Below are positions 31,047-40,406 of a DNA stretch of 64,000 nt, piece by piece. Under the pieces are notes generated by a model that was not told the DNA's origin, ran no database searches, and was given only the letters and a program-made list of their open reading frames with translations. The stretch is from Agromyces salentinus (lineage in GTDB: Bacteria; Actinomycetota; Actinomycetes; Actinomycetales; Microbacteriaceae), in NCBI RefSeq assembly GCF_009749395.1, contig NZ_WBIR01000003.1, forward strand, positions 1-64,000. The letters run 5' to 3'. Within the stretch, counting starts at the first letter, position 1. Each line of letters begins with the position of its first letter. A program made the position numbers and the translations under genes.

Positions 31047-34000
31047 ATGAGCAACTTCCTCGGATTCCGTCACGACGACTCCGCACAGCAGCCCCGACGG
31101 GCGCGGCGTCGGCGGGAGGCGAGACGCGCACGTTCCCTTCGCGGTCTGATCGCGACCATCGCGGTCGGCGGACTGCTCGCGGTCGGCCTGCCGACCATGG
31201 CGTTCGCCGACCCGGCGGACGAGCCGCAGGCCACGACCACCAGCGAGCCGACGGATGCGGCGACCCTGGCCGAGACCCCGTCCGACGCGCCGACCGAGGA
31301 AGCGCCTGCCGAGGAGGCCCCCGCCGAGGAGACGCCGGCAGACGAGCCGCCCGCAGAGGAGTCACCGGCGGAGGAGGCTCCCACCGAGGAAACGCCGGCC
31401 GAAGAGACACCGGTCGAGGAGACGCCGGCCGAGGAGGAGCCCACGACGGACGAAAAGTCCGAGGCCCCTCAGAAGAAGGCCGCCAAGAAGGCTGACGGGG
31501 AGGGCGGGGTCAATGCGCTCGTCGTGCCCCCGGCCGGGCCCACCGAGGCGGTCGTCACCGTTCGCACCGGCGACGTCCGGTCGCTCGCCGACCCCAACTC
31601 GATCTCCGCCCTCCAGGGCGTGCAACTCGGCCTCTACACCTCCCGCACCGGCGGCACGCTCCTGTTCACCTGTACGACCGACGCCGACGGCGACTGCAAC
31701 TTCGTCATTCCCGAGACCGGTACCGGTGGAGTGAACCGCGACCGTCAGATGTGGGTCCGCCAGATCTCCGCCCCGGGAACGCACTTCACGAACCCGTCGC
31801 TCCGCACCGGCGACGCCTTCGGCGGCGACAACCAGCAGACCAGCTACAGCTTCCGCGTCGGACTGCTGAGCGGAGGCACCTGGCAGATCCGCGCCGGCAA
31901 CACCTACAGCACGACCCCGCCGGCCGAGTTCATGGTCGGCACGGGCAACACGAACCGCGACGCCTCCGGCGGCGTCTGGCAGAGTTCGCGGGTCAACCCG
32001 CTGCTGCCCCAGCAGTGCGGCCTCGACGTCGCCCTCATCATGGACCTCTCGGGGTCGGTGAACCCCGCGATCGTGCAGGCCCGTGCGGCCGGTGTCACGC
32101 TCGTCAACTCGCTCGTGGGCACGCCCTCGCGCGTCGGCCTCTTCACCTTCGCCCAGTCTGCGCCCGCTCCGGGCGCCAACAACCAGAACCGGAGCATCGC
32201 TTCGGTGTCGAACCAGCCCGCCGCCGACATCGTGAACGGCTACATCAACGGCCTCACCGCGCCGGCGAGCGGCACCACGAACTGGGACCGCGGACTCTGG
32301 CAGGTCGCGAACTCCCCGACGCAGTACGACGTCGCCATCATCCTCACCGACGGCAACCCGACGGTGTACGGCACCGAGACCACCCCGGGCAACTTCACGC
32401 GAACCCGTGAGGTCGAGAACGCCGTCTTCTCGGCGAACTCGATCAAGTCCGAGGCGACCCGCGTGATCGCGCTCGGTGTCGGGTCCGGTGTCACGAACGC
32501 GGACACGGCCCTCAACCTGCGGGCGATCTCGGGCGGCATCCCGTTCAACGGAGGCAACGCGACCGCGGCCGACTACTACCAGACCGCCGACTACGCGGCT
32601 GCCGGGGCCGCCCTCAAGCAGATCGCCCTCGGCAACTGCCAGGGATCGGTGTCGGTGACCAAGGCGGTCGTCCCGCCGGGAGGCACGATCGACGACGCCC
32701 AGGCCGCAGGCGGCTGGGCGATCTCGGCGACCGAACCGTCGACCGGCATCACGGTGAACACCCCGAACCCGGCCGATGGCCTGACGGCTCCGGTCACGGG
32801 CGTCATCAGCTACCCGCTCGACTTCGCCGGCGGCACGAACTCCGGCACCGTGGTCATCCGCGAGACGCAGCAGAGCGGGCACACGGTCATTCCGCAGGGC
32901 GCGTTGAACGCGACCTGTCGCGATCTCAACACCGACACCCCGATCGCCGGGGTCACGAACAACAACTCCGTTCCGGGCCAGCCGGGCATCAACGTGCCTG
33001 TCAGTCCGACGACGGCCGTGAGCTGCATCTTCTTCAACCAGGCTCCGAACCCCGCCGCGAGTGTCGTGGTCGACAAGCTGTGGGCCGTCAACGGGCAGCC
33101 CGCCGTCCCGAACGGCTCGCAGGACCCCTCGCTCGTCGGCAACGCCGACGTGAACGGCGCGACCACCGGGTTCGGCACCGAGGTGGGCGGATTCACCGCC
33201 GGGCAGTCCATCCCGATCACCGAGCAGCTCACGGCGCTCCCCACGACGTGCGAGCTCGTCGGCCAGCGGGTCACGGGGGTGAACGGCGCCGGGGCGGACT
33301 TCGACCTCGGTGGCGGAGCGTACTCCCTCACCCTCCTGGGCGGACTGAACACCGTCGAGATCACGAACACGATCACCTGTCCGACCAAGCTGACGCTGCG
33401 GAAGGAGGTCATCGGTGGCGGTGTGGCGACCGACCTCTGGACCCTCGACGCGATCAACGGCCCGACGGACTTCCCGGCCGGCAACGACTCCGGCGACGGT
33501 GTCACCGGCACCGTGACCCCCGGCGTCGTCTACGCCCTCGCCGAGTCCGACGGCGACCCGCGCTACCTGCAGGTCGACAACCGTGATCCGGTCCTCGCGG
33601 TGCCCGGCTCGACGGGCAGCTGGGCGTGCGTGCCGCTCGACGCGGACGGCAACCCGACCGGTGGCAACGCCGGCGGCCTCAACGGCGGCGTGAACGTCGG
33701 CTTCGGCAACTGGGTGCAGTGCACCGCGGTGAACCAGACCGCCCAGGTCGAACTCCGCAAGGTCGTGAACCCCGCGAACGGCGGCGACGCCGTCCCCGCC
33801 GACTGGGACCTCACCGCCACGCCGGTCGACCCGCCCGCGGGCATCGTCTCGTCGACGGTGACGAGTGGCACGACGATCCTCGTCCGCCCCGGCGTGACGT
33901 ACGAACTCTCCGAGGAGAACGGTCCGGCCGGATACGACCTCGAGTCGCTCCAGTGCAACGTCGGGCCTGAGGGCACCTACGTGGATGTCACCGACATCAC

Positions 34001-37000
34001 GCTCGACCCGACGGAGTCGGCGATCTGCGTGTTCACGAACATCGCCGAACTGCCGAAGATCTCCCTCGACAAGGTCGTCTCGCCCACGGGCGTCGCCGAC
34101 AAGACGTCGTGGACGCTGAGCGCGAGCCGCGCCGACAACGCCGCCGTCGTCGCCACCGGTGCCGGCGGCACGTCCGGCCAGTTCGTGAGCGTGCCCGCGG
34201 GCGTCGCCTTCGACCTCGCCGAGACCACATCGCTCCCGAACGCCGGCGAGTTCCAGGCCGGCACGTGGCAGTGCTTCGTGAACGGCGGACCGGCGATCGC
34301 CGGACCCGTGCTCGCGGCGCTCTCGCCGGGAGACGAGGCATCCTGCGTCGTCACGAACACGCTGAAGCCGGTGGTCCCGACCATCACGAAGACGGCGGCG
34401 GTCCCGACCCCGAACGCCGACGGCACCTGGACCGTCGAGTACGACATCGTCGTGACCAACCCGAGCAACTTCCAGGACCTCGCGTACAGCCTGACCGACC
34501 AGCTGCAGTTCGGCGGCAACGTCACCGTGAACAGCGCGAGCTACCAGCGGACGCTCCCGGCGCCGCCGGGCGCGAGCACCTCGTGGACGGTTCCGTTCAC
34601 CGACGTCCAGGCGTTCGCCGGTGAGCCGACGCTCGTCAAGGCCACGTCGCACACCTGGCACGTCACGGTGAACGCGACGGTCGCACCGGGATCCGACTTC
34701 GGGGGCACCAGCCCGACCGCCTGCGACGCCGGGACCCCCGGCACCGTCGGCTTCCTCAACACGGCCGTCATGACCGTGGCGGGCGTCGACTACCCGGCTC
34801 AGGACTGCACGATTCCGGTGAAGCCGACCATCGCCAAGGTGGGCGGCACGGCCGTCGACAACGGTGACGGCACGTGGACCCTCCCGTACCGGATCACGGT
34901 CACGAACCCGTCCGCCACGACCGGCGTGGTCTACGACCTCGGCGACGCCCTCGATCTTCCGGCCGCGGCCGAGATCGTCGGCACCCCGGTCGTCGTAGCG
35001 AAGCCGGCGGGCGTCACGACGGTTCCCACGTGGACCGGCCAGGCTCCGAACACGCTGCTCGCCGATGACATCGCCCTCGCCGGCGGTGCGGCGGCGCACG
35101 TGTACGACATCACGGTGACGGTGCGCCTCGATTCCGACGACGCCGAGTTCATCTGCCCGAGTGCCGACGGCCTGAACAACACGGCGACCGTCGTCTCGGG
35201 CAACCAGTCGACGGATGCCACGGGCTGCGTCGTCATCAACCCGCCGACGATCACCCACACGAAGTCCGTCGTGCCGGGGTCGGTCTCGCAGGCGGTCGAC
35301 GGCACCTGGAGCATCGCCTACGACATCGTGGTGACGAACACCGGCGCGGTCGGCGGCGTCTACGACCTCGCCGACACGACGCACTTCGGCACCGGCATCA
35401 CCGGGGGCACCTACTCGGCGACGAAGAACGGCGTGCCGATCGCCGGGTGGACGAACGGCGGCGTCCTCGCCGACAACGCCTACCTCGCGGCCGGCGACCC
35501 CGACCCGAGTGACACGTATCGCATCACCGTGACGGGCATCGCCGTCGCCGGGCCCGAGCTCACGCCGGCCCAGACGGCCTGCCCGACCGGTCCCGGATCG
35601 GGAGCCTTCCTCAACACGGCGACCCTCACGGTCGCGGGCGTCGACTCCGACAAGTCGGCGTGCGACGCGCCCAGCGCACCGAGGATCGTGAAGTCGGGAG
35701 CGACGGCATCGCAGCTGCCTGACGCCACGTGGAACGTGACCTACACGCTCACGGTGTCCAACACCGACCCCGGCGCCAGGCCGTCGTACTACACGCTGAC
35801 CGATGACCCGGCGTTCCCCGCCGGCGTCGACTACCTCAGCTACACGATCGACGGCGGAGCGCCGGTGAGCCCGTACGACGGCTCGGAGTTCACGGTCGTC
35901 GCCGACCAGGCCATCGCGGCGGGCGAGGTCGACGTCTACACCGTCGTCCTCAACGTCGATGCGCCGTCCGGCGCCATCGCTCCCGAAGAGTTCGAGTGCC
36001 AGAGCGAGAACAACCCCGACGGCGTCGGCTTCCTGAACGAGGGCATCGTCACGTCGGGTGAGATCATCCGCACCGACGTGGACTGCACCGAGATCAGCCG
36101 CGGCGGCGAGCCGACGGTCGAGAAGGGCGACCCGACGGTCACCCAGGGCGGGGACGGGGTCTGGACCCTCGTCTACGACGTCACCGTCACGGGCAACGCC
36201 GAGTTCGTCTCGCGCTACGTCCTCGACGACACGCTCCGCTTCGGGCCGGAGGTCGACATCCTCTCGGCCGACTGGGAGAACGCCGACGACCCGACCGAGA
36301 ACGGCACCTGGACCGACCCCGAGGCGGACCCGACGACGAGCATCGTCGAGACGCCGCGGATCATCGGCGTCGACGCCGTGCACAGCTACACGGTGACGGT
36401 CACCGCGAGCGTGGATGCCGCGGCCTTCGAGGACCCGACGACCAACACGTGCTCGCCCTCCGAGGGTGCGCCGAACGTCGGCTTCCTCAACGAGGTCGCC
36501 CTGACGACGCCCGGCGGGCAGCCGACGTACGACACGGGCTGTGCGCTTCCGGCGGAGCCCGAGGTGACGAAGACCTTCAACGGACCGGTCACCGGCGACG
36601 CGAGTGGGTGGACCGCGAGCTACACCATCACCGTGCACAACACGAGTGACGACCAGGAGCTCGTCTACGACCTCAGCGACACGGCGGACTTCGCCGAAGG
36701 CGTGGTCATCACCGGCGCATCCGTCAGCTCCACCGACGTCACGGTCAATCCCGCCTGGGATGGCAACGCCGACACGACGCTGGTCACCGACCAGCCGCTC
36801 CCCGGTGGAGCGACCCACACCTTCACGGTGGAGTTCACCTTCACGGTCGAGGCCGATGCCCCCGCCGAGGACCTGGTCTGCGCCACCGACGAGACCGACG
36901 GCCAGGGCCTGCTGAACCACGCGGTGGTCACCTCGGGTGACGACTACGAGGCCGACGACTGCGGCGACGTGCCGGTGACGGTCGAGGTCACGAAGTTCTG

Positions 37001-40000
37001 GGTGATCAACGGCGGCGACCCGATCCCCTGGGACAGCGACGAGCTGCCCGCCGGCTTCGGCGCCACGCTCGTGCTCGACGACGTGTCCTCCGACTGGGAC
37101 ACGGTCTACGGACCGTACTCGGTCGGCAACTCGGTGAGCATCGGCGAGACGGATGTCGCGACGCCCGAGGGCGCCCGATGCTCGCTCGACGCCGACTCGA
37201 CCACCGGGCTCGGTGACGAGGAGCTGACCGGCGCCGTCAACGAGTTCGAGGTCGTCAACTACGTCGACTGCACGCAGACGGTGACGCTCACCAAGGTCGT
37301 CGACAACCAGCACGGCGGCGACGCCGTGGCCGAGGACTGGACGCTGAGCGGCGAGAACGTCGGAGACGACACCGACACCTTCAGCGGTGACGGCACGGCG
37401 AACGGCACGGTCGAGGCCGGCGTGGGCTACGCGCTCGACGAGGCCTCGACGGTCTGGGAGAACGGCGTCGAGTACGAGGTCTCCGCGACCTGGACCTGCG
37501 AGTCCGACAGCGGCGACGGCGCATTCACCCTGGTGCCCGGCGCGACCGACACGAGCGCCACCCTCACGGTGAACGAGTTCGGTGCGAGCGTCGAGTGCGA
37601 GATCACGAACACGGACATCGCGCCCGAGCTCACGCTCGTGAAGGTCGTGGAGCCCGAGGACGTCGCCACCGACTTCCCGCCGACGCTCTGGACCCTGACC
37701 GCCAGCGACAACGGCACCGAGGTGCTGTCGGGCGACGGCGGAGCCACCGGCGCGGTCGACTCGAACGTGGCGTACGACCTGGCCGAGGCCGCGAGCTTCG
37801 ACGAGGCCGACGAGTTCACGGCGAGCGACTGGACCTGCGTGAACGCCGAGGGAGCGCCCATCGCGCTCGATGACGCGGCCGTGACGCTCCAGCCGGGCGA
37901 CGACGTGACCTGCACGATCACGAACACGGCGGAGCCGGCCACGTACACGTTCGAGAAGACGGTGACGTCGGCCGAGCAGCAGCCCGACGGCACATGGCTC
38001 GTCGAGTACGCGATCGAGGTCGTGAACACGAGCGGCGTCTCGCCGCTCGAGTACGACCTCGTCGACACGCTCGACCAGTTCGGTGAGGGCATCACGGTCG
38101 ACGAGGCCTCGTGGACGAGCTCCGACGGGCGGGACGGCGAGTGGACCGGCCTTCCCGACGACCTCGACACCACGCTCGCCGACGGTCAGGCGCTCGGTGC
38201 GGGCGAGACCCACACCTACGACGTGACCGTCGTCGCGACGGTCACCGCGGGCGCCTGGACCGAGGACACCACGCAGTGCTCGAGCGATGAGATGTTCGAG
38301 CCCGGCGGGTTCCGCAACGTCGCGACGCTCACGGTCGACGACCTGCCGACCGTCCGCACCGACTGCGACGAGCCCGGCACCTCGTTCGCCGAGAAGCAGG
38401 TCCTGGGTGTGCCGGTCTACAACGGCGACGGCACGTTCGACGTCTCCTACGAGATCATGGTGTCCAACGCGAGTGACAAGGACCAGTACTACGACCTGAG
38501 CGACACGCCGGCCTTCCCGGCGGGCACGACGTTCACGGCCCAGGCGACCGATCCCGACGGCGACCCGGTGGTCGGCTGGACGGGTGTCGCTCCCGACGAC
38601 GTGCTGGCGGACGGTCGCCTGCTCGCCGCAGGGACCGGCGAGGGCCCGACCGTCGAGGTCTGGACCATCAACGCCACGGTGAAGGTCGACACGATCACGA
38701 ACACCGACGATGCGAAGTGCGTCGAGGAGACGAGCGGTCGCGGGTTCTACAACGGCGGTGAGTTCACCACCGGCACGATCACGACGCCGATCAGCGCCTG
38801 CGTCGACATCCCGATCGTCGACGTCGGCATCGAGAAGACGGCCGTGCTGCCGGATGGGGTGACGGCCGTCGATGACACCGAGGACAACACCTTCGACTGG
38901 GTGCTCACGGTCACGAACCACGGAGTGGACGTCCAGGACCTCGAGGTGACGGACCTCATCGATCCGCAACTCGAGATCACCGGGCCGGCCGTGTTCGAGG
39001 CTCCCGAGAACTGGACGGAGTCGACCGTGGGCAACCAGTTCACGGCCGACTACACCGGGACCTTCGTCGAGGGCCAGGTCACGACGATCACGATCCCGGT
39101 GCGGGTGCTCCCGGACGAGGTCGAGGCGCCGCCGGCCGTCGGGCCGGACGACCCGGCTCCGGTGCTGCCTGACTTCCCCGAGAACCAGGTGATCCCGAAC
39201 GTGGACGCGTGCGTGGCGACCAGCGGTTACCAGCCGCCGGCGCCCGGGCTCGCGGCACTGGCGCTCGAGGTCCCCGAGGGCAACATCGGCGACATCTTCC
39301 CCGGCAACGACTGCGCCGATGCCGAGGTGCCGGTGAAGAAGGTCGACGCCGGAGCCTACGTGCGATGCGTCGCGGACGTCCCGTGGCTGTACTACGACGT
39401 GCGGGCGACCGAGAACGTCACCCCCGGCGACATCACCGTGACGTGGACCTCGGCCGACGGCACGCAGACCAAGGAGCAGACGATCCCGTGGGACGACCGC
39501 GAGGGCCGACTCCTGTGGCCGGGCGCCGCGGTCGACGCAGACGGACTGCCGTATGCGTTCCCGGGCTGGCGTCCGATCACCGAGGAGGACCTCACGAACC
39601 CGCCGACTCCCGGCACCAGGTTCCTCGACCTCATCCTCGATGACAGCCTGCCCAGCTACGCCTGGCGGGACACGGAGAACCCGGCGTCCATCGAGTTCTC
39701 GGTGAACCCGAGCCAGACGGTGCTCGCGGTCTACCCGCAGGCGCTCCCGACCTGTGCGGTCGACCGACCGGCCGAGCTCGAGATCGAGAAGACCGCGAGC
39801 GTCACCAGCACGAAGGCGGACGGCGACTTCAGCTACTCGCTGCAGGTGACGTCGGTCGGAACGGGCGCGACGGACCCGACCGAGGTGTTCGACGAGATCC
39901 CGGCCATGCTGCGGGTCGACGAGATCACGACGGCGCCGGCTCCCGCGTTCCCGCGCTGGGAGGACTGCGAGGTGACGGGCCAGGACTCGGGCGGTTACGG

Positions 40001-40328
40001 CGGAACGCTCCACTGCGACCTGCTCGGCCAACTCGGGCCGAACTTCACGACGGCGCCGGTCATCGACCTGGCCGTGCACGTGAAGCCCGGAACGACGGTC
40101 TCGACGATCGACAACACCGGCGAGGTGTGCTGGCAGACGGCGGACGACCCTGATCCGGTCACCGAGTGCGCCGACGACACGGTCAGCGTGACGCTGCTCG
40201 GCGGCACGGCGATCACCGGGTTCTCGACCGGCCCGTGGATCTGGGGCGCCGCAGGGCTGCTCTTCCTCGGCGGGCTCGCCGTGGTCTGGGTCCTGGTCCG
40301 GCGGCGCAGGGAGATCGCCGGAGACTGA
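31047..40328 (+). CDS. Giant vWA / SpaA-like / DUF11-repeat surface protein (3,093 residues)
   Basis: This is an exported, wall- or membrane-attached adhesin-like protein. A long signal peptide has an Arg-rich n-region, the hydrophobic core LIATIAVGGLLAVGLP, and cleavage after AFA near residue 54. A Pro/Glu repeat spacer (EEAPAEETPA type) covers about 61-150. An SpaA-like module comes next. A von Willebrand A domain at about 322-532 has the MIDAS start DVALIMDLSGS. Five prealbumin/SpaA-like modules run to about 1110 and six DUF11-type modules to about 1972. Three more SpaA-like modules run to about 2297 and four more DUF11-like repeats, with one unrelated block (about 2762-2908), follow. It ends with a membrane helix (about 3064-3084) and RRRREIAGD. 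There is no LPXTG; TAITG precedes the helix. Most modules carry one Cys pair. The ATG at 31047 has a GAAGG site. Confidence 0.92.
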   Translation: MSNFLGFRHDDSAQQPRRARRRREARRARSLRGLIATIAVGGLLAVGLPTMAFADPADEPQATTTSEPTDAATLAETPSDAPTEEAPAEEAPAEETPADEPPAEESPAEEAPTEETPAEETPVEETPAEEEPTTDEKSEAPQKKAAKKADGEGGVNALVVPPAGPTEAVVTVRTGDVRSLADPNSISALQGVQLGLYTSRTGGTLLFTCTTDADGDCNFVIPETGTGGVNRDRQMWVRQISAPGTHFTNPSLRTGDAFGGDNQQTSYSFRVGLLSGGTWQIRAGNTYSTTPPAEFMVGTGNTNRDASGGVWQSSRVNPLLPQQCGLDVALIMDLSGSVNPAIVQARAAGVTLVNSLVGTPSRVGLFTFAQSAPAPGANNQNRSIASVSNQPAADIVNGYINGLTAPASGTTNWDRGLWQVANSPTQYDVAIILTDGNPTVYGTETTPGNFTRTREVENAVFSANSIKSEATRVIALGVGSGVTNADTALNLRAISGGIPFNGGNATAADYYQTADYAAAGAALKQIALGNCQGSVSVTKAVVPPGGTIDDAQAAGGWAISATEPSTGITVNTPNPADGLTAPVTGVISYPLDFAGGTNSGTVVIRETQQSGHTVIPQGALNATCRDLNTDTPIAGVTNNNSVPGQPGINVPVSPTTAVSCIFFNQAPNPAASVVVDKLWAVNGQPAVPNGSQDPSLVGNADVNGATTGFGTEVGGFTAGQSIPITEQLTALPTTCELVGQRVTGVNGAGADFDLGGGAYSLTLLGGLNTVEITNTITCPTKLTLRKEVIGGGVATDLWTLDAINGPTDFPAGNDSGDGVTGTVTPGVVYALAESDGDPRYLQVDNRDPVLAVPGSTGSWACVPLDADGNPTGGNAGGLNGGVNVGFGNWVQCTAVNQTAQVELRKVVNPANGGDAVPADWDLTATPVDPPAGIVSSTVTSGTTILVRPGVTYELSEENGPAGYDLESLQCNVGPEGTYVDVTDITLDPTESAICVFTNIAELPKISLDKVVSPTGVADKTSWTLSASRADNAAVVATGAGGTSGQFVSVPAGVAFDLAETTSLPNAGEFQAGTWQCFVNGGPAIAGPVLAALSPGDEASCVVTNTLKPVVPTITKTAAVPTPNADGTWTVEYDIVVTNPSNFQDLAYSLTDQLQFGGNVTVNSASYQRTLPAPPGASTSWTVPFTDVQAFAGEPTLVKATSHTWHVTVNATVAPGSDFGGTSPTACDAGTPGTVGFLNTAVMTVAGVDYPAQDCTIPVKPTIAKVGGTAVDNGDGTWTLPYRITVTNPSATTGVVYDLGDALDLPAAAEIVGTPVVVAKPAGVTTVPTWTGQAPNTLLADDIALAGGAAAHVYDITVTVRLDSDDAEFICPSADGLNNTATVVSGNQSTDATGCVVINPPTITHTKSVVPGSVSQAVDGTWSIAYDIVVTNTGAVGGVYDLADTTHFGTGITGGTYSATKNGVPIAGWTNGGVLADNAYLAAGDPDPSDTYRITVTGIAVAGPELTPAQTACPTGPGSGAFLNTATLTVAGVDSDKSACDAPSAPRIVKSGATASQLPDATWNVTYTLTVSNTDPGARPSYYTLTDDPAFPAGVDYLSYTIDGGAPVSPYDGSEFTVVADQAIAAGEVDVYTVVLNVDAPSGAIAPEEFECQSENNPDGVGFLNEGIVTSGEIIRTDVDCTEISRGGEPTVEKGDPTVTQGGDGVWTLVYDVTVTGNAEFVSRYVLDDTLRFGPEVDILSADWENADDPTENGTWTDPEADPTTSIVETPRIIGVDAVHSYTVTVTASVDAAAFEDPTTNTCSPSEGAPNVGFLNEVALTTPGGQPTYDTGCALPAEPEVTKTFNGPVTGDASGWTASYTITVHNTSDDQELVYDLSDTADFAEGVVITGASVSSTDVTVNPAWDGNADTTLVTDQPLPGGATHTFTVEFTFTVEADAPAEDLVCATDETDGQGLLNHAVVTSGDDYEADDCGDVPVTVEVTKFWVINGGDPIPWDSDELPAGFGATLVLDDVSSDWDTVYGPYSVGNSVSIGETDVATPEGARCSLDADSTTGLGDEELTGAVNEFEVVNYVDCTQTVTLTKVVDNQHGGDAVAEDWTLSGENVGDDTDTFSGDGTANGTVEAGVGYALDEASTVWENGVEYEVSATWTCESDSGDGAFTLVPGATDTSATLTVNEFGASVECEITNTDIAPELTLVKVVEPEDVATDFPPTLWTLTASDNGTEVLSGDGGATGAVDSNVAYDLAEAASFDEADEFTASDWTCVNAEGAPIALDDAAVTLQPGDDVTCTITNTAEPATYTFEKTVTSAEQQPDGTWLVEYAIEVVNTSGVSPLEYDLVDTLDQFGEGITVDEASWTSSDGRDGEWTGLPDDLDTTLADGQALGAGETHTYDVTVVATVTAGAWTEDTTQCSSDEMFEPGGFRNVATLTVDDLPTVRTDCDEPGTSFAEKQVLGVPVYNGDGTFDVSYEIMVSNASDKDQYYDLSDTPAFPAGTTFTAQATDPDGDPVVGWTGVAPDDVLADGRLLAAGTGEGPTVEVWTINATVKVDTITNTDDAKCVEETSGRGFYNGGEFTTGTITTPISACVDIPIVDVGIEKTAVLPDGVTAVDDTEDNTFDWVLTVTNHGVDVQDLEVTDLIDPQLEITGPAVFEAPENWTESTVGNQFTADYTGTFVEGQVTTITIPVRVLPDEVEAPPAVGPDDPAPVLPDFPENQVIPNVDACVATSGYQPPAPGLAALALEVPEGNIGDIFPGNDCADAEVPVKKVDAGAYVRCVADVPWLYYDVRATENVTPGDITVTWTSADGTQTKEQTIPWDDREGRLLWPGAAVDADGLPYAFPGWRPITEEDLTNPPTPGTRFLDLILDDSLPSYAWRDTENPASIEFSVNPSQTVLAVYPQALPTCAVDRPAELEIEKTASVTSTKADGDFSYSLQVTSVGTGATDPTEVFDEIPAMLRVDEITTAPAPAFPRWEDCEVTGQDSGGYGGTLHCDLLGQLGPNFTTAPVIDLAVHVKPGTTVSTIDNTGEVCWQTADDPDPVTECADDTVSVTLLGGTAITGFSTGPWIWGAAGLLFLGGLAVVWVLVRRRREIAGD

Positions 40329-40337
40329 TCCACGGCT

Positions 40338-40361
40338 GCCCGGCGGATGAACCCGCCGGGC
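40338..40361 (+). terminator. Hairpin after the surface protein gene
   Basis: GCCCGGCGG and CCGCCGGGC pair perfectly around a 6-nt loop, 10 bp after the stop codon. Confidence 0.65.
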
Positions 40362-40406
40362 GGCCGTGACCGACACCCGGAAGCGAGGGGGAACGCGACT
40401 GGGGAC

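Follow-up and report, generated by a model that had tools for sequence, protein, structure and literature searches.

Surface domains in which an intramolecular isopeptide bond and a disulfide occur together are already known from the DUF11/CLIPPER and SpaA_2 families and from the giant adhesin of Mobiluncus. In a survey of isopeptide domains (PMC12617251), disulfides are recorded in 29.7% of CLIPPER domains, 34.9% of CLIPPER_2 domains and 41.3% of the isopeptide domains of Actinomycetota, with prevalence in SpaA_2, and the CLIPPER isopeptide was shown by crystal structure. For the Mobiluncus mulieris adhesin (7651 amino acids, aa), PMC10619420 describes both bonds in one module, by mass spectrometry and crystallography. 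The subject of this report is a giant surface protein of the soil-type actinobacterium Agromyces salentinus, encoded in a window (the whole stretch of DNA analysed) of 64,000 nucleotides, positions 1 to 64,000 of contig NZ_WBIR01000003.1. Its open reading frame (ORF) occupies 31047..40328 on the + strand, begins with ATG and specifies 3093 aa. The models surveyed in PMC12617251 were those of the AlphaFold DB of up to 1280 aa, and the Agromyces protein is therefore beyond the reach of that survey. The best explanation of the observations as a whole, at a probability of roughly 0.78, is a single-chain, wall-anchored fibrillar adhesin with a doubly cross-linked stalk, each module of which, judged from the sequence, most likely carries an isopeptide bond plus a disulfide.

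The layout of the protein is listed below, with SpaA/CnaB-like modules numbered S1 to S8 and CnaA-like or DUF11-like modules D1 to D10. Each is given with the Lys (K), acid (E or D) and Asn (N) of its putative isopeptide triad and with its Cys (C); MIDAS is the metal ion-dependent adhesion site.

31047..31211, + strand: Arg-rich signal peptide, aa 1-55 (from sequence)
31212..31496, + strand: Pro/Glu-rich low-complexity linker, aa 56-150, the least conserved part (conservation 0.33)
31512..32015, + strand: N-terminal head domain, aa 156-323, Cys209/Cys217; beta-rich in a low-confidence model
32016..32639, + strand: VWA domain, aa 324-531, flanked by Cys324 and Cys531; Pfam VWA, MIDAS D333-x-S335-x-S337, T411, D435
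32640..33038, + strand: SpaA/CnaB-like S1, K539 E606 N664, C624/C660; no Pfam match alone
33039..33386, + strand: SpaA/CnaB-like S2, K677 E726 N774, C735/C778; no Pfam match alone
33387..33734, + strand: SpaA/CnaB-like S3, K786 E833 N896, C861/C892; SpaA_2 at 16.9 bits, below cut-off
33735..34040, + strand: SpaA_2 S4, K905 E956 N998, C970/C994; Pfam SpaA_2, 55.4 bits
34041..34358, + strand: SpaA_2 S5, K1009 E1059 N1104, C1076/C1100; 33.3 bits
34359..34808, + strand: CnaA-like D1, K1115 D1151 N1238, C1226/C1254; triad conservation, model and fold matches
34809..35228, + strand: CnaA-like D2, K1264 D1300 N1378, C1370/C1394; triad conservation
35229..35663, + strand: CnaA-like D3, K1406 D1443 N1523, C1512/C1539; triad conservation
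35664..36086, + strand: CnaA-like D4, K1549 D1586 N1664, C1651/C1680; triad conservation
36087..36542, + strand: CnaA-like D5, K1693 D1728 N1815, C1802/C1832; triad conservation
36543..36962, + strand: CnaA-like D6, K1842 D1878 N1957, C1945/C1972; strongest part of the TIGR04226 match
36963..37277, + strand: SpaA/CnaB-like S6, K1983 E2034 N2071, C2045/C2075; no Pfam match alone
37278..37610, + strand: SpaA_2 S7, K2083 E2132 N2188, C2151/C2184; 32.8 bits
37611..37925, + strand: SpaA_2 S8, K2199 E2247 N2293, C2264/C2289; 56.8 bits
37926..38366, + strand: CnaA-like D7, K2304 D2340 N2424, C2411/C2440; triad conservation
38367..38801, + strand: CnaA-like D8, K2450 D2486 N2569, C2558/C2585; triad conservation
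38802..39317, + strand: divergent DUF11-like D9, K2597 D2636 N2718 invariant; Cys pair 2722/2756 differently placed
39318..39761, + strand: domain of aa 2758-2905 without family assignment, Cys2774 and Cys2903
39762..40196, + strand: DUF11-like D10, K2915 D2949 N3023, Cys 2974, 2990, 3028 and 3041; DUF11 at 19.6 bits, sub-threshold
40197..40325, + strand: C-terminal sorting signal TAITGF, hydrophobic segment and RRRR tail; T-G-F invariant in 23/23 orthologues

The initial annotation, made from the letters of the DNA, had placed a ladder of paired cysteines in this ORF; its coordinates were right, and 16 modules hold one pair each. These 16 pairs (S1-S8 and D1-D8) account for most of the 44 Cys of the protein, the remainder being 209/217 and 324/531 in the head and eight in the C-terminal part. 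Every one of D1-D8 reads Cys, then [GA][FL]xN, then Cys, as had been claimed, with gaps of 28, 24, 27, 29, 30, 27, 29 and 27, so that the range is 24-30 and not the 25-30 first given; GFLN is exact in three of the eight, and the variants are GLNN, AFLN, GLLN, GFRN and GFYN. The S modules likewise each have one pair (gaps 24-43). Of the W-x-C ... C-x-TN ending noted in several of them, W-x-C is present in 4/8 and C-x-x-x-N in 6/8; in the two remaining modules the second Cys lies 4 residues past the Asn. Among 23 full-length orthologues Cys is the most conserved residue class (mean identity 0.97, vs 0.86 for Trp and 0.73 for Tyr; all-column mean 0.53), and the pairs are thus not due to chance. 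Where Cys are missing from an orthologue they are gone as pairs or as whole modules, with two exceptions that are taken up below. Past the signal region, the Cys total is even in all 24 proteins (the giant protein and its 23 orthologues), at seven different values: 36, 38, 40, 44, 46, 48 and 50. In three named Agromyces orthologues an extra Cys-containing SpaA-like stretch, absent from the giant protein, precedes the head (head segment starts L006:7556, L007:8207 and L008:8207); it is likely one reason for the higher totals.

A scan of the Cys pattern in other actinobacterial giants, which the initial annotation had proposed, bears out the pairing. To avoid bias, the D-module profile was searched against the collected loci with every Cys masked. 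It recovered 481 unique D-type modules, of which 456 with the Asn and complete flanks were kept and 25 dropped; the counts are of sequences, not independent events. Both Cys are present in 453 of the 456 (240/241 in Agromyces, 213/215 elsewhere). This count replaces a preliminary masked one of 396 modules (two Cys in 384, three in 8, none in 2, one in 1 and five in 1). An earlier count with a Cys-trained profile, in which 370/370 full-span modules had one Cys on each side of the Asn, was dropped as biased, since such a profile demands Cys. Loss of the two Cys together was counted in this way for D modules; S modules were counted within the 23 orthologues. Of 40 further related ORFs, nine without a detected signal segment were left out; an even Cys number was found in 28 of the other 31, among which the L006, L007 and L008 entries repeat proteins of the orthologue set and, on the even side, L074_+_8 and L073_-_2 start at locus ends. 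As far as these statistics of conservation, paired loss and even totals go, Cys pairing within modules is well supported, and with it the disulfide-stapled stalk first suggested.

What did not hold is the implication that disulfides stand in place of isopeptides. The 16 paired modules and two C-terminal ones all contain an invariant Lys/acid/Asn set, and the Asn of the GFLN motif is itself the putative isopeptide Asn. The triad of the S modules (8/8) starts with a first-strand Lys, followed by a Glu and, close to the module end, an Asn. In D1-D8 a Lys is combined with the Asp of a Y-x-L-x-D motif and with the GFLN Asn; D9 and D10 have a Lys-Asp-Asn triad as well, and over these ten modules 34-39 residues lead from Lys to Asp. 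The three residues are invariant in 16/16 modules in every orthologue holding the module (20-23 of 23 rows), and those of D9 and D10 likewise (21-22 of 23 rows), against mean identities, triad residues included, of 0.70 for Lys, 0.53 for Asn, 0.48 for Asp and 0.36 for Glu. Within the wider set, the complete Lys-Asp-Asn triad is read in 428 of the 456 D-type modules; the other 28 comprise 24 with a gap at the Lys column (one also with Glu at the acid column), three with Glu for Asp and one with Arg for Lys. The spacings of the D-module triad resemble those of published CnaA triads, as given in Table 1 of PMC12617251 and for FimP in PMC3485203. Because both residue sets are present in each module, the contrast between disulfide and isopeptide fails, and the either/or reading is to be corrected to a stalk that most likely combines the two in each module.

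The family assignments agree with this picture to differing degrees. The Pfam cut-offs are 25 bits for SpaA_2 (PF19403), 24.6 for DUF11/CLIPPER (PF01345) and 23.8 for VWA (PF00092). Scanned alone, four of the eight S modules (S4, S5, S7 and S8) exceed the first of these. That for DUF11 was not reached by the whole protein (15.7 bits), by D1 alone (17.1) or by the C-terminal part (19.6), and single D modules passed no curated cut-off in Pfam (0/7, D1-D3 and D5-D8) or NCBIfam (0/8). The whole protein does pass TIGR04226, the RrgB K2N isopeptide D2 domain, at 41.2 bits vs a cut-off of 30; of the single D modules, D6 (23.2 bits) and D1 (17.6) fall below it and the other six give no match. The original label "DUF11-like" is accordingly a loose one. 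No meaningful relative was found in the PDB by sequence, whether the query was the whole protein, a stretch of D1-D2 or the profile of the D modules.

A model of S5-D1, built from 24 alignment rows drawn from the giant protein and L006-L008, has a mean predicted local distance difference test (pLDDT) score of 87.5 and a predicted template modelling score of 0.79. In D1 the Asn is model residue 242, in strand 240-248, and the second Cys is residue 258, in strand 251-259; the two strands form a hairpin in which, by residue counting, Cys258 lies about opposite Asn242, and the first Cys (residue 230) is in the loop preceding the Asn strand. Both Cys of S5 are in strands, 78-82 and 101-110, with block mean pLDDT of 96 and 97. 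The modelled Cys positions fit disulfides. In Foldseek and VIA comparisons the modelled D1 groups with domains of CnaA type from pilins and adhesins (SpaD 4hss, RrgB 2y1v, SspB 2wza), for some of which isopeptides are known; in VIA, PilA 8wxd scores Z 10.4 (3.1 Å over 130 residues), SspB 2wza 9.4 (3.1 Å over 126) and RrgB 2y1v 9.3 (3.2 Å over 124). For one D module, D1, the predicted fold is a CnaA-like beta-sandwich.

A further regularity concerns how the modules are spaced. At 16/16 junctions of the giant protein, a module's final cross-linkable residue and the Lys of its successor are 8-13 residues apart (mean 10.6). Of the 15 junctions S1-S2 to D7-D8, 13 show no variation in this value across orthologues, the exceptions being S1-S2 (different in 3/24 rows) and S3-S4 (2/24). 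At the D8-D9 junction, about 38802, 11 of 20 orthologue rows are longer by ~110 residues, which suggests an extra module. Measured from the Asn, the next Lys is 9-13 residues away after S modules and 26-29 after D modules. Among 306 adjacent D-D pairs, namely those with K, N and both Cys, the distance from second Cys to next Lys is 10.8 in Agromyces (standard deviation, sd, 1.2) and 10.5 elsewhere (sd 1.1). Two other distances vary more, that from Asp to first Cys (sd 4.1 and 5.6) and that from first Cys to Asn (sd 2.0 and 2.0). These numbers suggest that the disulfide may brace the terminal hairpin of D modules. As a simple bypass of the hairpin that follows the Asn it does poorly: the first Cys is ~12 residues before the Asn and the second ~16 after it, and so the ring cuts the free path only from ~16 to ~12 residues. 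Bracing against peeling is more plausible. It is conceivable, with the odds against it, that the D modules are an unmodelled CnaA-like subfamily in which disulfide and isopeptide make one coupled device, the bracketed Asn and braced hairpin giving the near-constant 8-13 residue spacing and the disulfide, formed on export, setting or gating the isopeptide by positioning the Asn strand.

The genome encodes enzymes that could export-oxidize and anchor such a protein: a thioredoxin-like (DsbA-like) protein with a membrane segment and CPFC, a VKOR protein, and a class E sortase (232.6 bits vs a cut-off of 160). Class E sortases prefer and recognise LAXTG. The abstract of PMC5148588 names both class E sortase and LAXTG. 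The C-terminal signals of orthologues include LAVTG, IASTG and TAVTG, with A in 22/23 and TG in 23/23, and that of the giant protein is TAITG, without the Leu of an LAxTG-like signal. The xAxTG motif, hydrophobic segment and basic tail, with a class E sortase in the genome, point to anchoring of the class E type. A search of the genome found two sortases, both on other contigs: the class E enzyme and a class F-like one below its cut-off (100.3 bits vs 166).

The sequence shows the modules, their triads and Cys pairs, how far these are conserved, and that the genome encodes such enzymes; from this we infer bond formation and geometry, the acting enzymes and a function in adhesion as follows. 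A VWA head with a MIDAS, of the pilus-tip type, would sit on a stalk of ~18 Ig-like (immunoglobulin-like) modules, some of the CnaB type (SpaA_2) and others of the CnaA type (RrgB-D2/CLIPPER-like). Each module would form an intramolecular Lys-Asn isopeptide, helped by Asp in D modules or Glu in S modules, and in S1-S8 and D1-D8 the module's own two Cys would join in an intramodule disulfide. In the D modules this disulfide would tie the last strand to the loop that precedes the Asn strand; the resulting ring would enclose the isopeptide Asn and brace the terminal hairpin, which lies beyond the Lys-Asn bond. The whole chain would be exported, oxidized by a DsbA/MdbA-like enzyme that VKOR recycles, and anchored to the wall by the class E sortase.

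Several observations weigh against this proposal. Two single-Cys substitutions occur, at position 861 in L081 and 970 in L082, in proteins whose totals are both even; one D-type module (L030) retains the first Cys alone; and the total is odd in L090, L098 and L069_+_38, three of the 31 related giants (the last starts near the end of its own locus and is probably cut). Most loci had been collected with queries that contain Cys; a Cys-blind search of the order hit genomes at nearly the same rate (39/297 vs 41/297 with the unmasked profile). Within the triad, the acid is Glu in 4/456 modules, one of them also without an aligned Lys, and the Lys is Arg in one. The D-module loop with the first Cys was modelled at a pLDDT of 58-63 only, the S part of the model was barely covered by the VIA comparison, and the head model is poor (pLDDT 57.6, four alignment rows). 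Folds free of isopeptides reach similar or higher VIA Z scores with D1 (FnBPA 4b5z 11.4, integrins 9.2-9.4), and the fold match consequently does not prove an isopeptide bond.

Among other explanations, the one that survives best keeps the doubly cross-linked stalk and assigns it to a structural surface protein, for instance in aggregation or morphogenesis, that is no adhesin. Conservation is higher in D1 and D2 (0.65 and 0.66) than in the VWA head (0.54), but lower in D7 and D8 (0.48 and 0.46); all but two of the 23 orthologues, L080 and L081, have an sdhB match in their fetched locus (one of these 21, L088, belongs to another genus); and PMC13251363 reports that SrtE-dependent wall proteins act in Actinoplanes morphogenesis. 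Against this stand the VWA assignment of the head segment (25.7 bits, E 1.6e-5), its MIDAS residues D333, S335, S337, T411 and D435, invariant in 23/23 orthologues, and the best Foldseek match of the head model, the pilus tip adhesin SpaC, which from a low-confidence model is supporting only. We regard a purely structural role as improbable. A stalk held by disulfides alone, in which Cys replaced isopeptides and the Lys, acid and Asn are left over or structural, would agree with Cys pairs conserved as well as the triads; it is very unlikely given triads invariant in every module of every orthologue holding it, and both Cys-free modules of the 456 (L042 and L054) retain K, D and N. Slightly less likely again are intermolecular disulfides that zip neighbouring fibres together. 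The Cys would be extracellular, and in D modules one sits at the module end, as such a zip might use; yet of the 456 modules two have neither Cys, one has only the first and none only the second, totals are even in 24/24, and the distance from Asn to second Cys is 16 in 339 of 453, as expected inside a hairpin. That the Cys serve as metal ligands, or remain reduced to act as a thiol or redox switch, has nothing beyond their conservation in its favour and is scarcely credible for an exported protein with two Cys per module, even totals, poorly conserved His (16 His, 6% at identity >=0.9) and a genome with DsbA-like and VKOR proteins.

The adhesin with the doubly cross-linked stalk is thus preferred, and its module order is largely kept across orthologues. 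With the D1-D8 stretch as query, matches were found in 29/60 genomes of the genus (its own included) and 34/398 of the family; the D profile at E <=0.001 found 41/297 in the order and 13/396 in the phylum. In its own genome the giant protein matches one gene only, and the nearest named locus is that of A. terreus, at 72% in the best segment. A second Cys-rich giant surface protein lies near the orthologue in L006, L008, L065-L070 and L072-L080 (with a third in L080); in Agromyces loci these second giants measure 863 to 2475 aa as pieces, many cut by the locus end. On an uncultured Microbacterium contig (L009), an open frame of 3745 aa containing 60 Cys lies close to a relative of the query; at E 1e-8 it does not match the giant protein.

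The genes flanking the giant-protein gene are on the opposite strand. One flank is presumably sdhCDAB and the other presumably YihY-like and exonuclease III-like genes plus trpS. Neither these flanks nor the two sortases of the genome search point to a sortase-assembled pilus, whose operon would combine several subunits with a class C sortase. A minus-strand ORF of 3004 aa (31362-40376) overlaps the gene and is taken as its high-GC (~70%) mirror and no gene.

Regular spacing of this kind, maintained across Agromyces and beyond it, makes it testable what a disulfide adds beside an isopeptide and whether one bond depends on the other. The protein also points to giants of more than 1280 aa outside the AlphaFold-based survey of PMC12617251.

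Among known systems, the D modules resemble CLIPPER (DUF11, PF01345) and CLIPPER_2 (DUF7507), which the same survey describes as CnaA-like Ig folds, often in tandem in long surface proteins. They share the Lys-Asp-Asn triad, with 33 residues from Lys to Asp in 9IFR vs 35-37 in D1-D8, but D modules are below the Pfam cut-offs, and the disulfide of 9IFR is a CTTC tetrapeptide in the last strand, whereas the D-module pair brackets the Asn. With RrgB D2 (TIGR04226) the likeness holds for the whole giant protein, best at D6, and not for single D modules. The Mobiluncus adhesin is likewise an actinobacterial single-chain giant of repeated Ig-like modules; according to PMC10619420 it has ester-bond domains and a thioester-type head of its own, unlike the VWA head and other module subfamilies of the Agromyces protein, and the disulfide there connects strands 2 and 5 and does not involve the Asn hairpin. 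Actinomyces FimP and FimA and Corynebacterium SpaA and SpaD, as PMC3485203 describes them, also combine CnaA/CnaB domains with isopeptides and disulfides; the FimP M-domain triad Lys190-Asp230-Asn319 resembles that of the D modules, and SpaD 4hss is among the Foldseek/VIA matches of D1. Those pilins are sortase-polymerized subunits of ~500 residues, as against one long polypeptide here, and the FimP disulfides are in CnaB domains, whereas the Agromyces protein has a Cys pair per module. No prior description of the Cys-GFLN-Cys arrangement was found among the titles and abstract beginnings that searches of an open-access library listed. Particular to this protein are a CnaA-like module below the Pfam cut-offs, with a Cys pair that brackets the putative isopeptide Asn and is near-universal in the module subfamily, and the near-constant 8-13 residues that separate the final cross-linkable position of a module from the Lys that follows.

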